DNA of 64,000 nt, taken from NCBI GenBank assembly GCA_032027165.1, contig JAVSMO010000001.1, positions 1,800,458-1,864,457 of the forward strand, in the 5' to 3' direction. The translations under genes were made by a program, and so were the position numbers. The notes beneath the pieces were generated by a model. That model did not search any database. It saw nothing but the letters and a program-made list of their open reading frames with translations, and was not told where the DNA came from. Below, piece by piece: positions 45,634 to 58,804 of this stretch. Numbering within the stretch: position 1 is the stretch's first letter; each line of letters begins with the position of its first letter. The stretch comes from Denitratisoma sp. (GTDB taxonomy: Bacteria > Pseudomonadota > Gammaproteobacteria > Burkholderiales > Rhodocyclaceae).

Positions 45634-47258
45634 GTTGCACGGCCCACATCGACACGTTCGCACGAGACAACCTCCCGCCGCGCGACCAGTGGCCGGAACT
45701 GGTGTTCTCGCGGCCGGAGCTGCAGTACCCGGAGCGCCTCAACTGCGCCGCCGAGCTGCTCGACCGCATGGTCGCCGCCGGCCATGGCGAGCGCCCAGCG
45801 ATCTGGGCGCCGGTGGACGGCAAGCCGGTGCGGTGCACCTACCGCCAGCTGCTCGCCCAGGCCAACCGCATCGCCCGCGCCCTCACCGAGGACCTCGGCC
45901 TGGTGCCGGGCAACCGCGTGCTGCTGCGCGGGCCGAACAACCCGATGATGGCCGCCTGCTGGCTCGGCATCGTCAAGGCCGGCGGCATCGTCGTGGCGAC
46001 CATGCCGCTGCTGCGCGCCAAGGAGCTGACGCAGATCGCCGTCAAGGCGCGCTGCAGCCTCGCCCTGTGCGACGCACGCCTGCTCGACGAGCTGGAACTG
46101 GCGCGGCCCGACTGCCCGGACCTGAAGCGCATCGTCGCCTTCAACAGCGACGGTTCCGCGGCCCTCGAAGCGCTGCTCAAGGACAAGCCCGACAGCTTCG
46201 ACAACGTCGACACGGCGGCCGACGACGTGGCGCTGATCGCCTTCACCTCCGGCACCACCGGCCAACCGAAGGGCACCATGCACTTCCACCGCGACGTGAT
46301 GGCGATGTGCGATGCCTTCCCGCGCTCGGTGCTGAAGCCCGCGCCGGACGACATCTTCTGCGGCACGCCGCCGCTCGCCTTCACCTTCGGCCTGGGCGGC
46401 ATGCTGTGCTTCCCGCTGCGTTTCGGCGCGTCCACGGTGCTGGTGGAGAAGCTGATGCCGGACACGCTGATGCAGACTATCCGCGATTTCAAGGCCACCA
46501 TCTGCTTCACCGCGCCGACCTTCTGGCGCCTGATGGCGCCGCTGGCCGAAAAGGACGGCATCGGCCGCCTGAAGAAATGCGTCTCCGCCGGCGAGGCCCT
46601 GCCCGACGCCACGCGCCAGCTGTGGAAGCAGGCGAGCGGCATCGAGATCATCGACGGCATCGGCGCCACAGAGATGATCCACATCTTCATTTCCTCGCCG
46701 CCGGAGAAAGTCCGCCGCGGCGCCATCGGCCAGGTGGTGCCGGGCTACCACGCCCTCATCGTCGACGACGACGGCAACCCGCTGCCGCCGGGCGAAGTCG
46801 GGCGCCTCGCCGTGCAGGGCCCGACCGGCTGCCGCTATCTCGCCGATCCCCGGCAAAGTCAGTACGTGCAGCACGGCTGGAACCTCACCGGCGACGCTTT
46901 CTCGATGGACGCCGACGGCTACTTCACCTACCAGGCGCGCACCGACGACATGATCATCTCGGCCGGCTACAACATCGCCGGGCCCGAGGTGGAGAGCGCG
47001 CTCCTGCAGCATCCCGCCGTCGCCGAATGCGGCGTGGTCGGCGTGCCCGACGCGGAGCGCGGCCAGATCGTCAAGGCCGTCGTCGTGCTGCGCGAGGGCC
47101 ACCAGCCGGGCGAGGCGCTGGCGCGCGAGCTGCAGGACTTCGTCAAGCGCAGCATCGCCCCCTACAAGTACCCGCGCGCCGTCGAGTTCGTCGACGCGCT
47201 GCCGCGCACGGAAACCGGCAAGCTGCAGCGTTTCCGGCTGCGCCAGGAAAACAGATGA
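45630..47258 (+). CDS. benzoate-CoA ligase family protein (2-aminobenzoate-CoA ligase)
   Basis: 542 residues, AMP-forming. Adenylation motifs are [20 protein letters not shown] (P-loop), [16 protein letters not shown], and [43 protein letters not shown], with the catalytic lysine in [14 protein letters not shown]. Length and [16 protein letters not shown] region resemble the benzoate/2-aminobenzoate CoA ligases. The start is GTG 45630, overlapping the upstream stop (GTGA). It provides the aryl-CoA for the flavoenzyme at 40842. Confidence 0.9.
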
Positions 47259-47728
47259 GCGAACTGCACTGCCGCATCCTCGGCGACACCTTTTACAGCG
47301 ACATGCTGGTGCGCTTTTCGCACTGCGACCCGGCCGGCATCGTCTTCTACCCGCAGTACTTCATCATGTTCAACGGCCTGGTGGAGGACTGGTTCAACCA
47401 GGGCCTGGGCGTCAACTACGCCCGCTACATCACCGAACACCGCCTCGGCTTTCCCATCGTCAAGCTCGAATGCGACTTCGTCGCGCCCTCGAAGATCGGC
47501 GAGATCATCACCCTCGGCCTGAAGCTGGAGCGGCTGGGAAAGAGTTCCATGGAGATCGCCGTCGACTGCCGCCACGCGCAGGAGGAGCGGCTGCGCGCGA
47601 GATTCGTGCTGGTTGCCATGAACCTCGATCGGCAGCGCGCGCAGCCCCTGCCCGAAGACCTGCGCGCCCTGATGCTGGCATTCCAACAAGGACAATTCGA
47701 CATAAATAACCACAGGAGAGACTCATGA
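47255..47728 (+). CDS. acyl-CoA thioesterase, 4-hydroxybenzoyl-CoA type
   Basis: 157 residues of the hot-dog fold with the 4HBT signature FSHCDPAGIVFYPQYFIMFNGLVEDWF, where the Asp is catalytic. It also has LGFPIVKLECDFVAPSKIGEIITL. It may release CoA from dead-end intermediates. ATGA overlaps on both sides tie it to the ligase and RidA genes. Confidence 0.92.
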   Translation: MSELHCRILGDTFYSDMLVRFSHCDPAGIVFYPQYFIMFNGLVEDWFNQGLGVNYARYITEHRLGFPIVKLECDFVAPSKIGEIITLGLKLERLGKSSMEIAVDCRHAQEERLRARFVLVAMNLDRQRAQPLPEDLRALMLAFQQGQFDINNHRRDS

Positions 47729-48120
47729 TCCAGATGTTCAACCCGCCCGAGTGGCAGCGGCCGAAGGGCTATTCGAACGGCGTCACCGCCTACGGCCAGA
47801 TGATCTTCGTCGCCGGCCAGGTGGGCTGGGACAGCAGCGAGGTGTTCCAGACCGACGACCTGGTCGGCCAGGTGCGCCAGGCCCTCACCAACATCGTCGC
47901 CATCCTCGCCGAGGCCGGCGCCAAGCCCGAGCACATCGTGCGCATGAACTGGTATCTCGCCGACAAGGACGAGTACAACGCCCGCCTGGCCGAGATCGGC
48001 GCCGCCTACCGCGAACTGATCGGCCGCCACTTCCCGGCGATGACCGCGCTGCAGGTGGCCGGCTTCGTCGAGGACGGCGCCAAGGTGGAGATCGAGGTCA
48101 CCGCAATGCTCCCTGCTTGA
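47725..48120 (+). CDS. RidA/YjgF-family protein
   Basis: 131 residues: GYSNGVTAYGQMIFVAGQVGWDSS, LTNIVAILAEAGAKPEHIVRMNWYLADKDEYNARLAEIGAAYRELIGRHFPAMTALQVAGFVEDGAKVEIEVTAML. RidA proteins hydrolyse reactive enamines/imines. After ring reduction of aminobenzoyl-CoA an enamine/imine forms, so a deaminase role in this pathway is plausible; this is inference. The catalytic arginine of RidA is not in the usual IEIEAIA context here. Confidence 0.88.
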   Translation: MIQMFNPPEWQRPKGYSNGVTAYGQMIFVAGQVGWDSSEVFQTDDLVGQVRQALTNIVAILAEAGAKPEHIVRMNWYLADKDEYNARLAEIGAAYRELIGRHFPAMTALQVAGFVEDGAKVEIEVTAMLPA

Positions 48121-49034: not shown

Positions 49035-49064
49035 TTGTCCGCACCGAGCGCGTGCGGGTAGAAT
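49035..49064 (+). promoter_or_regulatory. possible sigma70 promoter of the sigma54-activator gene
   Basis: TTGTCC - 18 bp - TAGAAT, with the -10 ending 17 bp before the start at 49082. Confidence 0.4.
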
Positions 49065-49081: not shown

Positions 49082-50410
<1,329 letters not shown>

Positions 50411-50446: not shown

Positions 50447-50466
50447 ATGTTGGCGCTTGCCAACAT
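50447..50466. promoter_or_regulatory. upstream activator palindrome A
   Basis: ATGTTGGC-GCTT-GCCAACAT, a perfect 20-bp inverted repeat 37 bp past the activator gene. It fits the half-site pattern TGTY-N10-RACA known for GlrR. Its centre is 66 bp from palindrome B. Confidence 0.75.
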
Positions 50467-50511: not shown

Positions 50512-50533
50512 AGTGTTGGGATTTGCCAACACT
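50512..50533. promoter_or_regulatory. upstream activator palindrome B
   Basis: AGTGTTGG-N6-CCAACACT, with core TGTTGGG-ATTT-GCCAACA. Centre 88 bp upstream of the -12 GC of the sigma54 promoter. Confidence 0.72.
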
Positions 50534-50597
50534 CTTGAGTCTTCCTGTCTTCGAAGTTTTACATTAACTATTTGTAATCATTAAAAAATAACAACCA

Positions 50598-50611
50598 GGC
50601 ACGGTCATTGC
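50598..50611 (+). promoter_or_regulatory. sigma54 promoter of the globin operon
   Basis: GGCACGGTCATTGC: -24 GG and -12 GC separated by the invariant spacing (GG at 50598-50599, GC at 50610-50611), within the consensus TGGCACG-N4-TTGC. The surrounding DNA is AT-rich, as expected for a bent promoter region. Confidence 0.82.
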
Positions 50612-50661: not shown

Positions 50662-51105
50662 ATGAAAACAGAACAGATCCGTCTCATCCGCGCCAACTGG
50701 GAAGAGATCCACCCCAATGCCCGGCTCGCCGGCCGCCTGTTCTACACCAAGCTGTTCCTCATCGAGCCCTCGCTCAGCGAGCATTTCCGCAACAACGCGG
50801 AAGAGCAGACCCAGCGCCTGATGCGGGCCCTCGGCATCGCGGTCTACGGCCTCGGCCAGCCCAGGGTGCTGGAGCCCCTGCTGCACAACCTCGCCGAGCA
50901 TCACGCCATGGCTGGCGTGAAGGGCAGCCACTACGACGCCGTCGGCAAGGCGCTGCTGTGGACCCTGAAGATCGTCCTCGGCGAGAAATACACCGAGGAA
51001 GCCGCCCGTGCGTGGGAGCATCTGTATGCCGGGATCACCCGGACCTTGCGCGACGCCATGCGGAATGATGCTGCCGGCGCGACGGCGCTGCGCGCGGCGG
51101 CCTGA
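50662..51105 (+). CDS. single-domain globin
   Basis: 147 residues of the flavohaemoglobin-type single-domain globin family. Segments are QIRLIRANWEEIHPNARLAGRLFYTKLFLIEPSLSEHF, a distal Phe/Gln region, and the proximal-His helix LEPLLHNLAEHHAMAGVKGSHYDAVGKALLWTLKIVLGEKYTEEAARAW. It has no FAD or NAD domain. It probably binds O2 or NO. Start at 50662 follows AAAGGA; a second ATG at 50647 is less well placed. It is the first gene after the sigma54 promoter. Confidence 0.9.
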   Translation: MKTEQIRLIRANWEEIHPNARLAGRLFYTKLFLIEPSLSEHFRNNAEEQTQRLMRALGIAVYGLGQPRVLEPLLHNLAEHHAMAGVKGSHYDAVGKALLWTLKIVLGEKYTEEAARAWEHLYAGITRTLRDAMRNDAAGATALRAAA

Positions 51106-51116
51106 GGGGCGGGGCC

Positions 51117-51563
51117 ATGTCGATCGCCACCTGGAGCGTCCGGCCGAAGGCCCTCGCGGTGCCGCCGTTCGCGCGCAGCCGCGCCTTCCTCGATGTCGCC
51201 GAAAGCTCGGCCGACATGATCGCCGTGCTCGACGCGGCCGGGCGCCGGCTCTACGCCAATGCCTCCTTCGGCAGGCTGCTGTCCCGCGCCGAATACATCG
51301 CCGGCAGCGACTCCTTCGGCCACATCCATCCCGAGGACCGCTCCCGCGTGCGCAAGCTGTTCATGCGCGTGCTGTCCGAGCGCCGCGGGCAGCGCCTGCG
51401 CTACCGCATCGTCGACCGCCACGGCAACGTGCACCACATCGAGTCGCACTCCCACGTCGTGGCCGGCGATGACGGCGATGCCCCGCGCGTCCTGGTCATC
51501 TCCTGGGAGCCCCGCAGGGCGACCGGCGCAGCCGACGACTTCGGGCAATTGCGCGCCGCCTGA
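51117..51563 (+). CDS. stand-alone PAS domain protein
   Basis: 148 residues consisting almost only of one PAS domain: FLDVAESSADMIAVLDAAGRRLYANASFGRLL ... GSDSFGHIHPEDRSRVRKLF ... RYRIVDRHGNVHHIESHSHVVAG. It is very like the PAS of the kinase encoded next (SADMIAVLDA / STSDMIAVLDAE), so the pair probably arose by duplication. It lacks any output domain and may act as a sensory adapter or a competitor for the kinase PAS dimer; that is inference. Confidence 0.82.
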   Translation: MSIATWSVRPKALAVPPFARSRAFLDVAESSADMIAVLDAAGRRLYANASFGRLLSRAEYIAGSDSFGHIHPEDRSRVRKLFMRVLSERRGQRLRYRIVDRHGNVHHIESHSHVVAGDDGDAPRVLVISWEPRRATGAADDFGQLRAA

Positions 51564-51592
51564 GCGCGCGCCCGGCGGCAGAGGGGAACCGC

Positions 51593-52876
51593 ATGCTGCA
51601 GAAACGCTCGCCTGTCTGGACGGCTGCGGACACCGCCGCGCCCGGGCTGGACGAACACTGCTTCCATGCCGTTGCCGACAGCACGTCGGACATGATCGCC
51701 GTGCTCGACGCCGAGGGCCGCCGCCTGTATGCCAATCCCGCCCTTGCCCGGCTGCTGGGGGAAACCGGCAGCCTGGTCGGCACCGATTCCTTTCTCGACA
51801 TCCATCCCGACGACCGCGATCGCATGCGCGCCCTGTTCAGGCAGGTCGCGACCCAGGGCAGCGGCGCGCGCGCCGAATACCGCCTCATCGATGGCCGCGG
51901 CGGGACGTGCTTCCTCGAGTCCCAGTCCAACGTCGTCTGCGACGGCAGCGAGCCGCTGCGCGTGGTGGTGGTGTCGCGCGACGTGACCGAACGGCGGCGG
52001 TTGGAGGACACGCTCTCCCGCCTCAACCGGGAGCTGGAGTCGCGCATCGAGGCGCGCACGGCGCAGCTCTCCGCCGCCAAGGGCCAGCTGGAAGGCACCG
52101 TGGCCGAGCTGCAGGCGGCGCACGGCGAACTGCGGACGCGCGAAGAGGACGCCCGCCGCGCGCTGGAACGGGCGCGCGAGCTGCACGAGCTGAAGCTGCG
52201 CTTCGTGTCGATGACCAACCACGAGTTCCGCACGCCGCTCACCACGATCCTCTCCGCTTCGGAGCTGCTGCGCACCTATGACGGGCGCTTCTCGGAGAAG
52301 GAACGCCTCGAAATCCTGGACGACATCCGCAGCGCCGTCGGCCGCATGACCTTGATGCTCGACCAGGTGCTCACGATCAGCCGGTCCGACGCCGGCCGGC
52401 TGGAGTTCCAGCCCGAGCCGGTGTCCGTCACCGGGTTCGCGCGCGACCTGCTCGGCAAGCTGGAAAAGGCCGCCCTCGGCAGCCATCGCTTCGCCCTCGA
52501 ATCGCAGGCGGCGGAAACGACCCGCCCGCTCGACGCCAGGCTGCTGACCCTGATCCTGCAGAACCTGCTCTCCAATGCAGTCAAGTACTCCGCCCACGGC
52601 AGCCAGGTCACGCTGCGGGTTGCCGCGGAGGCGGCCGCCACGGTATTCGAGGTTGCCGACGAGGGCATCGGCATCCCCGAGGAAGACCGGGCGAACCTGT
52701 TCAAGACCTTCTTCCGCGGCAGCAACGTCGGCCGGATTGCCGGCACCGGACTCGGCCTCGCCATCGTCAAGCGTGCGGTGCAGCGGCATGGCGGCGCCAT
52801 CGCCTGCGAAAGCGTCCTGGGCGGCGGCTCCCGCTTCATCGTGCGCATTCCGCTTGTGCCGGGACCGGCCGCCTGA
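51593..52876 (+). CDS. soluble PAS histidine kinase
   Basis: 427 residues without membrane segments. PAS at about 20-135, a coiled coil at about 140-195 (LNRELESRIEARTAQLSAAKGQLEGTVAELQAAH), HisKA with RFVSMTNHEFRTPLTTILSASELL, and HATPase with NLLSNAVKYSAHGSQVTL, DEGIGIPEEDR and GTGLGLAIVKRAVQRHGG. It is in the same operon as the globin and the PAS protein. It is the best local candidate to phosphorylate the sigma54 activator at 49082, though kinase-regulator pairing is inferred. Confidence 0.9.
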   Translation: MLQKRSPVWTAADTAAPGLDEHCFHAVADSTSDMIAVLDAEGRRLYANPALARLLGETGSLVGTDSFLDIHPDDRDRMRALFRQVATQGSGARAEYRLIDGRGGTCFLESQSNVVCDGSEPLRVVVVSRDVTERRRLEDTLSRLNRELESRIEARTAQLSAAKGQLEGTVAELQAAHGELRTREEDARRALERARELHELKLRFVSMTNHEFRTPLTTILSASELLRTYDGRFSEKERLEILDDIRSAVGRMTLMLDQVLTISRSDAGRLEFQPEPVSVTGFARDLLGKLEKAALGSHRFALESQAAETTRPLDARLLTLILQNLLSNAVKYSAHGSQVTLRVAAEAAATVFEVADEGIGIPEEDRANLFKTFFRGSNVGRIAGTGLGLAIVKRAVQRHGGAIACESVLGGGSRFIVRIPLVPGPAA

Positions 52877-52904
52877 AAATCCCCCGACAGGAAAATCATC
52901 CCCC

Positions 52905-53453
52905 ATGCAAAAGGAAACCGTCGTTCTGCTCCATGCCGCGTCGCTCGCGGGCCCCCTGTCCCTGCTCGCCGATCGACTGGCCGCCACGCACCGCGTCATC
53001 CGCGTCGGCCTGGACGCTGGCGCCGCACAACCGGCATCGAACCTGGCCGGACTGCTCGGCGGCGGTGCGGCGGCACATCTGGTCGCACAGGGCCCGGCCC
53101 TTGGGCATGCGCTGGGGCTGGCACAGGCCTGCCCGGATCGCATCTCCAGCCTGGCGCTCATCGAGCCCGTGCAAGCAGGCCGGACGTCATCCGCTGCGGT
53201 CTTCGGCATCGCCCAGCCCGTCTGCCTGGTCGGACGGATCCTCAGCGGGCTGCGCGTGCATGCCGAGATGCGCCGGCTCGGCGACGCCCTGGCAAACGCC
53301 GAACAGCACTTCTTCATCGACGATCCGACCGACGTGCGGGCGACCGACAGGAGCATCGCCGAACTGGTCCTCGCCTTCCTGCACCGTCACGGCAACGACG
53401 GCCGGCGCATGTCGGCGCCGCCTTTCCTGCGGGAATGCAGTCTGGCCGCGTAA
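52905..53453 (+). CDS. alpha/beta-hydrolase-like protein lacking the nucleophile
   Basis: 182 residues. The first half reads like an alpha/beta hydrolase: VVLLHAASLAGPLSLLADRLAATHRVIRVGLD and then LVAQGPALGHALGLAQACPDRISSLALIEP, where the usual GxSxG elbow is GPALG with no serine. The cap and C-terminal part are short. It is probably a non-catalytic relative. Start ATG 52905 follows GACAGGAAAATC. It ends before a terminator and is the last gene of the sigma54 operon. Confidence 0.6.
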   Translation: MQKETVVLLHAASLAGPLSLLADRLAATHRVIRVGLDAGAAQPASNLAGLLGGGAAAHLVAQGPALGHALGLAQACPDRISSLALIEPVQAGRTSSAAVFGIAQPVCLVGRILSGLRVHAEMRRLGDALANAEQHFFIDDPTDVRATDRSIAELVLAFLHRHGNDGRRMSAPPFLRECSLAA

Positions 53454-53558: not shown

Positions 53559-53576
53559 TGTTGGCATCCGCCAACA
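53559..53576. promoter_or_regulatory. upstream activator palindrome C
   Basis: TGTTGGC-ATCC-GCCAACA, a perfect 18-bp inverted repeat. Centre is 65 bp from palindrome D. Same core as palindrome A at 50447. Confidence 0.75.
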
Positions 53577-53623: not shown

Positions 53624-53641
53624 TGTTGGTTTTCACCAACG
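53624..53641. promoter_or_regulatory. upstream activator palindrome D
   Basis: TGTTGGT-TTTC-ACCAACG; arms GTTGG and CCAAC are complementary, last base deviates. Its centre is 87 bp upstream of the -12 of the second sigma54 promoter. Confidence 0.6.
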
Positions 53642-53706
53642 CCGTCGGCCCGATGCAGGTTGCCACGAATCGGCTATTCGATTGTTTTTATTGTGTTTTA
53701 TTCCAT

Positions 53707-53720
53707 GGCATGGTCGTTGC
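53707..53720 (+). promoter_or_regulatory. sigma54 promoter of the second unit
   Basis: GGCATGGTCGTTGC: GG at 53707-53708 and GC at 53719-53720, correct -24/-12 spacing. It resembles the first promoter base by base (GGCAYGGTCRTTGCG). Confidence 0.82.
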
Positions 53721-53777: not shown

Positions 53778-54257
53778 ATGAGAACCCGCATCCTCGCCGC
53801 CGCCCTGATCGCGGCCCTGTCGCAAACCGCCTTCGCCGACAACGGCGCGTACTGGAACAACATCGACGCCGGCATGGCCAACATGCTGGAGACGAAGAAA
53901 GGCGCGCCGCTGCCGACCGGCGATTACTGGGCAGCCGTCCAGGCCGGCTTCGACAACATGCTCAACCACACGCCCTATGCCGGCGAAACCGCGGTGACCG
54001 TCGCCCGCGGCGAGCCCGATCCGGTGGAAACCCTGCTGCATGCCATGGTGCGCAGCGAAGACCAGCCGGTGCGCGTGCGCGGCATCGACTCCCGGGACGA
54101 CAACGTTGCCGCCGCCTTCGGCCGCATGCTGAATCACGCTCCCCATGAAGGCGAGACCGCGGTCACGGTTGCGCGCCAGCTGGACTACCGCGTCGACCGC
54201 CTCGTGATGGCCATGCGCAACGCCCGGCCGGCCGCCATCGAGGTCGCCGCGAAATGA
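53778..54257 (+). CDS. exported protein with internal MLNH-GETAVTVAR repeat
   Basis: 159 residues, a family I do not recognise. Signal peptide (MRTRILAAALIAALSQTAFA), then a repeated motif: FDNMLNHTPYAGETAVTVAR near residue 60 and FGRMLNHAPHEGETAVTVAR near 115. A first copy is degenerate (AGMANMLETKKGAPL). No cysteines or haem motifs. Repeats include His and acidic residues that could bind metal. It is the first gene after the second sigma54 promoter and overlaps the next by ATGA. Confidence 0.7.
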   Translation: MRTRILAAALIAALSQTAFADNGAYWNNIDAGMANMLETKKGAPLPTGDYWAAVQAGFDNMLNHTPYAGETAVTVARGEPDPVETLLHAMVRSEDQPVRVRGIDSRDDNVAAAFGRMLNHAPHEGETAVTVARQLDYRVDRLVMAMRNARPAAIEVAAK

Positions 54258-54715
54258 CCGGCCATAGCCTGACGGCCACCCGCCCGGGCGGCGAACGCAC
54301 CGCACGGGACATGCGGGCCGACGCGCGCCCGTCGGCAGCCGGACTCGCCGACTCCCTCGTCTGGATCCGCCCGGCCGTCGCCTATCTGCTGGTGGCTGTC
54401 GCGCTCGGCGTGTACATGGGCGTCCAGGGCGACCACACGCTGCGCTCGGTACACGCGCACCTGAACGTGTTCGGCTGGGTCTCGCTGGCACTGATGGGGC
54501 TGATTTACGGCCAGCACCCGGAGATGGCGCGGAACCGGCTGGCACGGTCGCATTTCTGGCTGCAGAACCTCGGCCTGGCGATGATGATGCTGGCACTGAC
54601 TTTCAAGCTGGCCGGCTATCCGCAGGCCGAACCGGTGCTCGGCATCGGCTCCGTCATGGCCGCGCTGGCGGTCGGCCTCTTCGCGGCAAACGTCTTCCGC
54701 GCGGCCCGCGCCTGA
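54254..54715 (+). CDS. small haem-copper-oxidase subunit I-like membrane protein
   Basis: 153 residues with a 35-residue soluble N-terminus and four predicted helices: AVAYLLVAVALGVYMGVQG, HAHLNVFGWVSLALMGLIYGQHPE, HFWLQNLGLAMMMLALTFKL and GIGSVMAALAVGLFAANVF. The HAHLN-FGW motif and LIYGQHPE and HFWLQNLG resemble helices of cbb3/NorB-type subunit I, but the protein is far too short for an oxidase. It could be a one-haem relative, or a gas- or haem-sensing membrane partner of the exported repeat protein. Start overlaps by ATGA. Confidence 0.6.
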   Translation: MTGHSLTATRPGGERTARDMRADARPSAAGLADSLVWIRPAVAYLLVAVALGVYMGVQGDHTLRSVHAHLNVFGWVSLALMGLIYGQHPEMARNRLARSHFWLQNLGLAMMMLALTFKLAGYPQAEPVLGIGSVMAALAVGLFAANVFRAARA

Positions 54716-54718
54716 GCC

Positions 54719-55087
54719 TCAGCCGGGCGGCAGCCGCCGGCGCAGAAGTTCGCGCAGGTCGGCCAGCTCGTAGGGCTTGGTGATGTATTCGTCGGCGCCG
54801 CAGGCCAGCCCCTTGTGGCGCGTGTCCTTCTCCGCACTGGCGGTCAGGAAGCAGAACACCGTGCGCGCCGTGGGCGGATGGGCGCGAATCTCGCGCAAAA
54901 CGGAAAAGCCGTCCATCTCCGGCATCATCAGGTCGCAGATGATCAGGTCGGGCACGCAGGCGATGGCGCTATCGACGCCCTGGCGCCCGTTCTCCGCCTC
55001 GAACACCTCATGACCTTCCAATGCCAGGAAGCGCCTGAGGTTGGAGCGGATGTCCTTTTCGTCCTCGATGATGAGCACTTTCGCCAT
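54719..55087 (-). CDS. single-domain response regulator
   Basis: 122 residues, CheY-like receiver only: MAKVLIIEDEKDIRSNLRRFLALEGHEVFEAENG, phosphoacceptor Asp in LIICDLMMPEMDGF, Lys in DEYITKPYELADL. The kinase gene lies 5 bp upstream on the same strand. The ATG 55087 matches the family. A long in-frame extension upstream is a shadow of the kinase gene. Confidence 0.92.
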   Translation of the reverse strand: MAKVLIIEDEKDIRSNLRRFLALEGHEVFEAENGRQGVDSAIACVPDLIICDLMMPEMDGFSVLREIRAHPPTARTVFCFLTASAEKDTRHKGLACGADEYITKPYELADLRELLRRRLPPG

Positions 55088-55092
55088 GTCCG

Positions 55093-58000
55093 CTACCTCG
55101 GCAAGGTGACGTCGAAGCGGGAGCCCTTTCCCGGCGCGCTGCTGACCTCGATGCGGCCGCCGTGCAGGTCGACCGCCTTCTTGACGATGGCCAGGCCGAG
55201 GCCGGTGCCCGGCAGCGTACCGACGTTCTTCGCCCGATGGAAGGGTTCGAACAGGTGCGGGAGGTCCTCGTCCGGGATGCCGATGCCGCTGTCGGTCACC
55301 GTGAAGCGCAGCTGCGCCTCGTCGGCGCGCACCGCCAGCGCAACCGTGCCGCCATTCGGCGAATACTTCAGGCCGTTGGAGAGCAGGTTGCCGAGGATGA
55401 AGCGCGCCAGCTTCTCGTCGAGCAGCGCCTGGATGCCGTCGGCAGACATGTCGAAGACGATGCGGTCGCCGCGGCGCCCCTCGGCTTCCTCGGCGCGGAC
55501 CGTCTCCCGGATCACCTTCGCGCAGAAGTCGCGCACGTCGAGCGGGGCGGGGTTGCATTCCAGGCGGTCGGCCTCCGCCTTGCCGATCACCAGGACGTCG
55601 TCCATCATCCGCGTCATGCGGCGCACCGCGCTCTCGACGGCATCGATCAGCTCGGCCCGCTCCGCCTCCGGCAGCTTGCCGCCGTAGTACTTCAGCAGCT
55701 CGGCCGAGGAGAGGATGGTCGCGAGCGGCGTGCGGAATTCGTGCGAGGTCATCGAGACGAAGCGCGACTTCAGGTAGTTGAGCTCCTTCTGCTTCTCCAG
55801 CGCGGCGCGGATCTCCTCCTCCGCCTGCTTGCGCGCCGTGATGTCCACGATGGTCCAGATCGAGCCGGCCCGCGGATTGTCCGGATCGATGTTGCGCCCC
55901 AGGGTCTGCGCCCAGAAGGACGTGCCGTCCCGCCGCACCATCTGCCACTCCACCGAGAACGGCTCGCCGCGCGCCATCACGGCATACCCTTGCTCGCCGA
56001 ATTCCCGCCAGCTTTTCTCGTTCGGAAAAAGGATGCGCGAGGACTGGCCGATCAGCTCGTCCTGCCGGTAGCCGAGCATGTCGGCGAAGGCGCGGTTGAC
56101 CCACACGTAGCGCCGCTCGCGCGAATAGATGATGCCGACCAGCGCGCTCTGCAGGATCAGCTCGCGCTCGGCCGAGGTGCGCTTGAGCTCGTCCTCCAGC
56201 CGCCTGCGCTGGTCGATGTCCACGATGGCCCACACCGTGCCCTGCGACAGGTCGCTGGAATTCACGGCCTTGCCCGACAGCTGCGCCCAGAACAGTCGGC
56301 CGTCGGCGCGCCGCATGAGCAGCTCCGCCTCGTAGTGCCTCCCCGCCAGCACTGCCGCCGATACGGCGGCGCCGGTTTCCATGTAGGCTTCCCGCGAGAA
56401 ATAGTACGGCTCGAGCGAGATCCCCAGGATCCTTTCCGTGTCGACGCCGAAGATCTGTCCCATGGCCTTGTTGGCCCAGCGCAGCCGTCCCTTCGGGTCG
56501 AGGAGCGCGATGCCGACGATCGAGCGCTCGAGGATGGTCTCGCGCTCGGCCAGGGTCTGCTTCAGGCTTTCTTCCAGCCGGCGGCGTTCGGTGACGTCGT
56601 GGATGAAGGACAGGGTGGCCCGCTTCCCCTGCCATTGGACCTGGACGGTGTTGCCCTCCACCCAGACGGTCTTGCCGCTCGGCGTGCGGATGCGAAAGCC
56701 GATGACCGCCTTGCCGCCCTCAGGCTCGTCGACCAGCCTGACGGCATGGGCGCGCATCGTGGCGGCATCGTCCTCATGCACCAGGTCGAGGAAGCTGCCC
56801 ATGCGCAGCAGTTCCTCCTCGCCGCATTCCAGCATCCGGCACAGCGCCTTGTTGGCCAGCATCACGCGATTGCCGTGGACGATGGTGATGCCGACCGGGG
56901 AGTTCTCGATGACGTGCCGATAGTTTTCTTCCGAGCGGCGCAGATCGTCCTCGGCCCGCTTGCGCTCGGTGATGTCGATGAGGAAGGAGAGCACCGCCGG
57001 CTGGCCCTCCCACTCGACGTCGACGCCGCTGAACTCGATCCAGACGATCTCGCCGTTGGCGCGGAGCAGTCGGAACACCTCGTGCGACGGCACCGGCTCG
57101 CCGCGACGGCGCCGCCGATGGCGGTCGACCAGCACCGGGCGGTCGTCGGCATGGATGTAGTCCAGCAGGGGCTTGCCGACCAGCTCCGCCTCGCCGCGGC
57201 CGGTCAGCTCGGCGATGCGCGGATTGACGAAGCGCAGGATGCCGTCCTGCGAGATGAGGATGCCCTCGCTGGCATGGTCGACAAGAAGGCGATAGCGCTC
57301 CTCGGAATGGCGCAGGGCCTCGTCGGTCTTGCGCCGCTCTGTCTGGTCGCCGAGGAAGGCCAGCGTGGCCGGCTCGCCGTTCCAGAGGATGCGCACCGCG
57401 CTCGACTCGACCCAGACGTGGCTGCCGTCGCGGCGCATGACGCGGAACTGCGTGTAGCGCTCGGCTTCCTCCCCGCGCATGCGCCGGCCGTAGCGGTCGG
57501 CGACCCGCGCGACGTCCTCCGGGTGGAGCAACTGGACGAACGGCCTTGCGGTCAGCTCCGCCACCGTGAAGCCGGTCAGCTCCTCGGCGCGCGGATTGGC
57601 GAAGACCAGGCGGTTGCCCTGGGCGATGATGATGGTCTCTGAAACGTTGTCGATGACCGTGCGGTAATGCTCCTCCGACTTGCGCAGGGCCTCGTCGGCG
57701 CGCTGCTGCTCGGTGACGTCCGCCACCGAGACGAGCGTGGCGGGTTTGCCCTGCCAGACGATGTCCGCGCGGCTGACGCGGACCCACGCCGCCGCGCCGC
57801 CCGGCGCGTCGATGCGCAGGGGCCGGGCAAGGTCGGTCCGCTCGTCGATGCTGACGAAATCGCCCAGCGCTGCGCCGACGATCTGCTCCGGCGTACGCCC
57901 GACCATCGCCGCCGCGGCGGCATTGGCATAGCGGATCGCGCCTTCCTGGATGATGACCACCCCCTCGGCCAGTGCGTCGATGGCGAGCGAGCGCCATTCA

Positions 58001-58608
58001 AGTTGCCAGCGGTACTCATAGATACGCCGCAGCAGGCGGTCGATCATGACGTGGCCGACGATGGTGATCAGCCCGGCTGGCACGATGAGGGCGTTGAGCT
58101 TGAGGAGGTCCATCTGCGGCAGCAGGCCGAGTGGACCGGCCAGCAGGCTGGGGAAGGCCGCCACGGCGAGGTTGCCGAGCACGTTGTCGCGCAACCGCAG
58201 GATGAAGCTCAACAGCGGCGGCACGATGAACCAGAACATGAAGCCGCCGATGCCATAGGCGGCGCCGCCGTCCAGCCGCGCCAGGATCCACAGGAACACC
58301 ACCTGCAGCCAGAGCACGCCGCCGTAGAACACCAGCGGCAGCAGGCGCCGCATGCCCGCCAGAACGGCCAGCGGGTAGGGCAGGAACGAGAGTGAGAGGA
58401 GGATGCGCAGCCAGAAGGTGTCCGGTGCGTGAAGCGGATCGATGGCCCAGTCCCACAGCCACAGCGAGAAGACGAGAAAGGCCCCGGCGAAGGCGATCAT
58501 CGCCGTCGGCCGGCGGAAGTCCGCCTGCTTGAGACGCTGGAATTCCGCTTCGTCGAGCCTGCCGCGCGGCGAAGCCGGAATCATCCGCTGTAGATCGGTC
58601 ATGCCCAT
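55093..58608 (-). CDS. membrane histidine kinase with six PAS domains
   Basis: 1171 residues from ATG 58608 (MGMTDLQRM). A membrane region (about 35-205) has around six helices (AFLVFSLWLWDWAI ... LSFLPYPLAVLAGM ... FLWILARLDGG ... PSLLAGPLGLLP). Six PAS domains then run from about 220 to 935, recognised by repeats such as YRTVIDNVSETIIIAQ, YRLLVDHASEGILIS, YRHVIENSPVGITIV and ELILQSALVGIIYS. HisKA is RFVSMTSHEFRTPLATILSSAELL and HATPase has NLLSNGLKYSPNGG and GTGLGLAIVKKAVDLHGG. Its HisKA resembles that of the soluble kinase at 51593 (RFVSMT-HEFRTPL-TILS-AELL). No coding function is seen in 58609-58854 other than the opposite-strand helicase leader. Confidence 0.9.
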   Translation of the reverse strand: MGMTDLQRMIPASPRGRLDEAEFQRLKQADFRRPTAMIAFAGAFLVFSLWLWDWAIDPLHAPDTFWLRILLSLSFLPYPLAVLAGMRRLLPLVFYGGVLWLQVVFLWILARLDGGAAYGIGGFMFWFIVPPLLSFILRLRDNVLGNLAVAAFPSLLAGPLGLLPQMDLLKLNALIVPAGLITIVGHVMIDRLLRRIYEYRWQLEWRSLAIDALAEGVVIIQEGAIRYANAAAAAMVGRTPEQIVGAALGDFVSIDERTDLARPLRIDAPGGAAAWVRVSRADIVWQGKPATLVSVADVTEQQRADEALRKSEEHYRTVIDNVSETIIIAQGNRLVFANPRAEELTGFTVAELTARPFVQLLHPEDVARVADRYGRRMRGEEAERYTQFRVMRRDGSHVWVESSAVRILWNGEPATLAFLGDQTERRKTDEALRHSEERYRLLVDHASEGILISQDGILRFVNPRIAELTGRGEAELVGKPLLDYIHADDRPVLVDRHRRRRRGEPVPSHEVFRLLRANGEIVWIEFSGVDVEWEGQPAVLSFLIDITERKRAEDDLRRSEENYRHVIENSPVGITIVHGNRVMLANKALCRMLECGEEELLRMGSFLDLVHEDDAATMRAHAVRLVDEPEGGKAVIGFRIRTPSGKTVWVEGNTVQVQWQGKRATLSFIHDVTERRRLEESLKQTLAERETILERSIVGIALLDPKGRLRWANKAMGQIFGVDTERILGISLEPYYFSREAYMETGAAVSAAVLAGRHYEAELLMRRADGRLFWAQLSGKAVNSSDLSQGTVWAIVDIDQRRRLEDELKRTSAERELILQSALVGIIYSRERRYVWVNRAFADMLGYRQDELIGQSSRILFPNEKSWREFGEQGYAVMARGEPFSVEWQMVRRDGTSFWAQTLGRNIDPDNPRAGSIWTIVDITARKQAEEEIRAALEKQKELNYLKSRFVSMTSHEFRTPLATILSSAELLKYYGGKLPEAERAELIDAVESAVRRMTRMMDDVLVIGKAEADRLECNPAPLDVRDFCAKVIRETVRAEEAEGRRGDRIVFDMSADGIQALLDEKLARFILGNLLSNGLKYSPNGGTVALAVRADEAQLRFTVTDSGIGIPDEDLPHLFEPFHRAKNVGTLPGTGLGLAIVKKAVDLHGGRIEVSSAPGKGSRFDVTLPR

Positions 58609-58715
58609 GTCGAAACCTGCCGCCGTACCCGCGCCACACTGGGAAAAACCGAGTTTACCTGCTATTCGGCACGTTATGCCATCGGCCTTGAAACGGCTGG
58701 CACGGCCGTTTGGGC

Positions 58716-58721
58716 TATAAT
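58716..58721 (+). promoter_or_regulatory. -10 element of the rhlE promoter
   Basis: TATAAT at 58716-58721, about 134 bp before the start, giving a long 5' leader. A TTGAAA at 58688 is too far away (22 bp) to be a good -35. Confidence 0.5.
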
Positions 58722-58804
58722 GGCTGCGGTTTGCCCGTTCGCCGGTTAGCGCCTGCAAACCTGTCCGGTCGATCCCGACCAAGATTCAATCGAAACCCCT
58801 CGTG

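Follow-up and report, generated by a model that had tools for sequence, protein, structure and literature searches.

The window analysed here is a stretch of 64,000 nt from a 3.4-Mb genome (G000), and coordinates without a contig label are positions within it. The following genes and control elements were located (the dyads carry no strand).

49082–50410, + strand: sigma54 activator (REC-AAA+-Fis), GlrR-family paralogue, assigned through Pfam, NCBIfam, its orthologue clade and site co-occurrence; alternative GTG start at 49052
50448–50465: distal putative enhancer dyad of the globin operon, TGTTGGCGCTTGCCAACA
50514–50531: proximal putative enhancer dyad of the globin operon, TGTTGGGATTTGCCAACA
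50597–50611, + strand: predicted sigma54 −24/−12 promoter of the globin operon, AGGCACGGTCATTGC
50662–51105, + strand: single-domain globin (Y28 B10, F42 CD1, Q49 E7, H81 F8)
51117–51563, + strand: lone PAS protein (PAS_3, E = 1e-10)
51593–52876, + strand: soluble PAS-HisKA-HATPase histidine kinase (Pfam, NCBIfam)
52905–53453, + strand: ORF formerly called hydrolase-like, unsupported as a hydrolase
53559–53576: distal putative enhancer dyad of the second operon, TGTTGGCATCCGCCAACA
53624–53641: proximal putative enhancer dyad of the second operon, TGTTGGTTTTCACCAACG
53706–53720, + strand: predicted sigma54 −24/−12 promoter of the second operon, TGGCATGGTCGTTGC
53778–54257, + strand: secreted 159-aa protein of an unassigned family, with a repeated F..ML.H.P..G.T.VTVAR motif
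54254–54715, + strand: 153-aa membrane protein, predicted helical bundle, weak CcoN likeness (HxH segment)
54719–55093, − strand: single-domain response regulator (RR), convergent with the second operon
55093–58782, − strand: MASE8 multi-PAS histidine kinase, a conserved neighbour of the cluster

Pfam matches and the co-directional order confirmed the globin, lone PAS and PAS kinase genes of the first-pass annotation, with intergenic gaps of 11 and 29 bp. The two PAS proteins are related, as had been claimed, their PAS domains being 50% identical over 108 aa. The sigma54 activator was rightly counted as part of the system and lies closer than the reported "nearby", directly upstream of the globin gene (49082–50410). 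Its description as having no adjacent kinase holds within the window, but in two relatives, G468 and G097, a kinase gene precedes the activator, immediately or nearly so. The fourth gene could not be retained as hydrolase-like. The ORF gave no Pfam or NCBIfam match and no credible PDB match, no homologue was found among the related loci compared, and the G-x-S-x-G nucleophile elbow is absent, with "AQGPA" at that place. An alpha/beta hydrolase identity is not supported by these results. The codon-position GC signal of this ORF is weaker.

At neither operon had the first-pass annotation noted the paired dyads and the sigma54 promoter, and the second, putatively co-regulated operon was missed as well. 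The dyads follow the pattern TGTTGGC-N4-GCCAACA and stand in pairs upstream of the globin and of the second operon. Both operons are near-identical in layout, and their spacings match to within one base: the dyads lie 66 bp apart at the globin operon and 65 bp apart at the second, and the nearer dyad lies 66 and 65 bp, respectively, from the −24 GG. Perfect dyads occur three times in the 3.4-Mb genome, all at these two operons. A one-mismatch dyad near oxidase genes (G000:C1:1773922) was rejected as intragenic. A REC-AAA+-HTH activator and −24/−12 promoters with upstream dyads are the features of a sigma54 two-component regulon, and we consider it very likely that such a regulon exists around the activator and the dyads.

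Activator orthologues were collected from six further genomes: G468 (Sulfuritalea sp. PRO1), G525 and G235 (Rhodocyclaceae), and G097, G592 and G593 (Betaproteobacteria). The dyad–sigma54 element is present in all seven genomes with an orthologue. Across 398 family genomes, the element pattern matched only in G000, G468, G525 and G235, and the reversed pattern, used as a control, gave zero matches in the same set. The activator search of these 398 genomes returned at least 73% identity in exactly the same four, and at most 66% for all others among the matches listed. Were the genomes independent, such a coincidence would have a probability of about 1e-9; they are not, as three share a genus, but thirteen other sampled members of that genus contained neither element nor orthologue. 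Some of the genomes later counted had themselves supplied sites for building the pattern. The supporting genomes are mostly draft metagenome assemblies, and only one of the four orthologue-bearing family genomes is more than 90% complete. A close single-domain globin (E ≤ 1e-24) was found in all four of the orthologue-bearing family genomes and in 6 of the 394 others.

The geometry of the element was compared over sixteen promoters. The nearer dyad lies 64–67 bp from the −24 GG in fourteen of them and about one helical turn closer in the other two, and a second dyad, 65–67 bp further upstream, is recognisable in eleven. For most element matches outside the Betaproteobacteria (Haloferula, Xanthomonas, Peribacteria, Caulobacter, Sedimenticola, Kofleriaceae and Bacteroidales), neither the activator nor its targets had a homologue there, and these matches were set aside as probable chance occurrences; a match in Myxococcales was accompanied by an activator match of only 40%.

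The best NCBIfam match of the activator is GlrR, at 617 bits, below the curated equivalog cut-off of 763 bits. The genome encodes a separate GlrR-like protein (G000:C1:3355407), 62% identical to the activator, whose gene stands behind kinase-like and lipoprotein-like genes, as in glrK-qseG-glrR. The activator has no such surroundings, and the seven orthologues form a clade of their own (support 94/94, 96% of bootstrap trees). It is a GlrR paralogue distinct from the genome's own GlrR. The published QseF/GlrR consensus is TGTCN10GACA (PMC8745638), with the same half-site and spacing as the window dyad, and this literal sequence occurs above the nearer dyad in two promoters, of G235 and G593. 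GlrR/QseF of enterobacteria resembles the activator in its REC-AAA+-Fis architecture and in dyad half-site and spacing; it differs in its target, glmY, and in its place in a glrK-qseG-glrR locus, whereas the window activator belongs to a separate clade with the globin operon as predicted target. The activator would represent a duplicate in the GlrR family that acquired a new regulon and retained the half-site geometry.

The globin (147 aa) matched Pfam Globin with 46 bits (E = 8e-12) over residues 27–127. It is a single domain with no reductase domain, which by profile makes it a single-domain globin of the VHb/HGb-I type; having no fused transmitter, it does not have the composition of a globin-coupled sensor. 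Its haem pocket consists of Tyr B10 (Y28), Phe CD1 (F42), Gln E7 (Q49) and His F8 (H81). H81 was set as F8 by eye-alignment to Vitreoscilla Hb, in which it corresponds to His85. The same alignment led us to drop H90 as F8, and with it the idea that some relatives had lost their proximal His. The pocket residues are kept in the collected single-domain globin homologues, with the exception of one divergent globin-like protein. By sequence, the closest solved chains are 3s1i and 3ubc, "hemoglobin-like flavoproteins" (E = 9e-24), which we take to be HGb-I of Methylacidiphilum infernorum. No match to the truncated-globin family PF01152 was found in the genome. The first globin scan of the genome contigs returned no relative; the relatives were reached through the DNA element. 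By our reading of the sequences, oxidases of the aa3 and cbb3 types and an open frame resembling qNor are encoded in the genome, so both O2 and NO are plausible ligands of the globin. A subset of betaproteobacterial single-domain globins (L048 9362–9775 and L013, L015, L018, L021 and L035) carries Asp at the position of H90, adjoining the conserved Tyr91 (VHb Tyr95).

In the second operon, the 159-aa protein had no Pfam match over threshold, and its structure prediction (pLDDT 41) was too low for use; its family is a predicted member of the regulon in four genomes. The 153-aa protein scored 30 bits against the Pfam CcoN/COX1-like profile, a weak match under the cut-off of 34.8, and matched CcoN 3mk7 weakly (E = 0.48). 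Fold comparison of its model (pLDDT 75) with the PDB gave generic helical matches only, and haem binding by this CcoN-like protein is a prediction only.

Conservation of gene order, on which the first-pass annotation had staked its proposal, was borne out: the neighbourhood recurs in G525, G468, G592 and G593. The G525 locus contains the activator, globin, lone PAS, a shortened PAS kinase, the 159-aa protein, the CcoN-like protein and the facing RR and multi-PAS kinase. The G468 locus is the same, except that the PAS kinase is missing and no CcoN-like protein was detected. G592 has the activator, PAS kinase, 159-aa protein and the facing RR–kinase pair, with a further gene of the 159-aa type on a different contig; the surroundings of its activator yielded no globin. 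The order in G593 is activator, globin, two kinases and RR. The activator is followed by the PAS kinase in G235, where other contigs carry the element at a globin, a divergent globin-like protein and a GGDEF protein. The order in G097 is multi-PAS kinase, a small intervening gene, activator, element, small ORFs and globin. Unlinked globins bear the element in G235 and G593. Targets predicted outside the window include unlinked globins and PAS kinases, members of the 159-aa family, a diguanylate cyclase and secreted proteins, and the putative control circuit recurs in six other Betaproteobacteria.

Several of these loci show individual features. Directly upstream of the activator in G468 lies a histidine kinase with a Tll0287 domain and CXXCH (L095 11440–9974), for which the roles of c-haem sensor and cognate kinase of the activator are plausible there. 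The G525 PAS kinase (L079 3406–4005) keeps its PAS and phospho-acceptor region and ends before the ATPase domain, which may reflect decay, an assembly error, or a protein serving only as phospho-acceptor or phosphatase. The divergent globin-like protein of G235 (G235:C10, L116, reverse strand, ~1616–2038), under the same dyad–sigma54 element, has Asp at F8 and Val at CD1, gave no Pfam match, and may be incapable of normal haem binding. The element at the GGDEF protein (G235:C4, L114 ~1651–2700) ties the regulon to c-di-GMP in that genome.

With these results in hand, we propose a dedicated two-component sigma54 circuit that has two targets in the genome, one of them the globin operon. Judging from the anatomy of the DNA and the co-occurrence of sites and activator, the phosphorylated activator would bind both dyads at each operon, and sigma54 polymerase would read both promoters. 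The circuit would switch on the globin, lone PAS and PAS kinase and, separately, the secreted protein and the CcoN-like membrane protein. The globin would be its output, a soluble O2- or NO-binding effector with a Vitreoscilla-Hb-like pocket that possibly serves as an NO dioxygenase or O2 buffer. The PAS kinase is itself a predicted member of the regulon and probably contributes to its control, which would create a feedback loop, and the facing multi-PAS kinase with its single-domain RR would form a second input branch. As its signal the circuit would probably read redox, O2 or NO status, and a gas is plausible in this role; this is the weakest step of the explanation. The complete mechanism, a dedicated sigma54 circuit with the globin as output and PAS kinases in feedback, we regard as on balance probable. 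The other targets, secreted proteins and a GGDEF protein, speak against it in giving no clear pointer to gas handling, as does the G592 locus, in which the activator had no globin nearby.

The alternative with the best prospects concerns one step only and is compatible with the rest of the proposal. The kinase of the activator may be the convergent multi-PAS kinase (55093–58782) or an unlinked kinase, and the operon PAS kinase may act on another regulator or as a phosphatase; we hold this to be a possibility of some substance, though not the expected outcome. In G468, G525, G592 and G235 the cluster has kept the multi-PAS kinase and the RR as neighbours, including in genomes whose PAS kinase is missing or shortened. 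Its absence in G468 and the loss of its ATPase domain in G525 imply that the operon PAS kinase is not always the activator's kinase. The PAS kinase nevertheless stands directly after the activator and under the element in G235 and G592, and the cores of the two kinases are 50% identical, an identity that suits the alternative and does not decide the activator's partner.

It is unlikely, in our judgement, that the regulon is a surface or biofilm programme driven by a signal other than gas, with the globin as an accessory that handles O2 or NO. Secreted proteins do occur among the predicted targets, namely those of the 159-aa type and others in G593 and beside the G235 globin, as do a GGDEF protein and, downstream of the G235 globin-like gene, a TPR protein predicted for the outer membrane. 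The functions of these proteins are unassigned, however, globins are the commonest recognisable target, and the Tll0287 domain with CXXCH in the kinase upstream of the G468 activator is that of a haem-type sensor.

We give a rather poor chance to the view of the first-pass annotation, which casts the globin as gas sensor or source of the signal, acting through the lone PAS and PAS kinase on phosphorylation of the activator. Globin, lone PAS and PAS kinase adjoin in G525 as in the window, activator, globin and kinase genes are contiguous in G593, and globin-coupled kinases that feed an NtrC-like regulator are known from NmpRSTU (PMC6211767). Against this, the putative activator sites and the sigma54 promoter precede the globin, globin genes on two other contigs of G235 bear the same elements with no adjoining PAS match, and no fusion of a globin to a transmitter was seen. 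The position of the globin and the G235 genes suggest that it is the output of the switch rather than its sensor. More doubtful again is a scheme in which the free globin and the lone PAS, both products of the regulon, are soluble parts of one split gas sensor. They would load the PAS kinases with a gas or redox signal or relieve them of it, and in this way the haemoglobin would set the gain of its own sigma54 switch. Binding of the dyads by the genome's ordinary GlrR is very improbable: GlrR has the same half-site geometry and the genome's own protein is 62% identical to the activator, but in the family genomes, where GlrR-like paralogues are frequent, the element was confined to those with an activator orthologue, and G209 and G268 have a GlrR-like gene and no sites.

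The proposed sigma54 circuit was compared with known systems. Globins of the Vitreoscilla Hb/HGb-I type share the one-domain fold family and Tyr B10, Gln E7, Phe CD1 and His F8; the window globin differs from them in its predicted control by a dedicated, PAS-linked sigma54 two-component circuit and in an operon that contains no reductase gene. NorR is a sigma54 activator of NO-detoxification genes that senses NO itself through a GAF domain; it shares with the window activator the control of genes handling NO as a predicted role, whereas the latter has a receiver domain in place of GAF. In NmpRSTU of Myxococcus xanthus, a protoglobin domain fused to the kinase NmpU is the sensor, and the regulator is NtrC-like (PMC6211767). 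As in the window, globin, kinases and an NtrC-like sigma54 regulator share one locus, but the sensor globin is fused there, whereas the window globin is free and is a predicted target gene. The open literature, to which our search was largely confined, contained no described globin operon of this kind. What bacterial single-domain globins do in the physiology of the cell has long been debated, in part because little can usually be learned from the way they are regulated. With its own activator, enhancer sites, promoter and a small predicted regulon, this globin could allow the inducing signal to be found directly by reporter assays.

Upstream of the activator, at about 45659–48120, the window contains genes whose sequences suggest a CoA-ligase, a protein of thioesterase type and a RidA protein, perhaps of an aromatic-acid pathway. 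The RidA gene was assigned by Pfam, and a RidA gene is also found upstream of the activator in G468.
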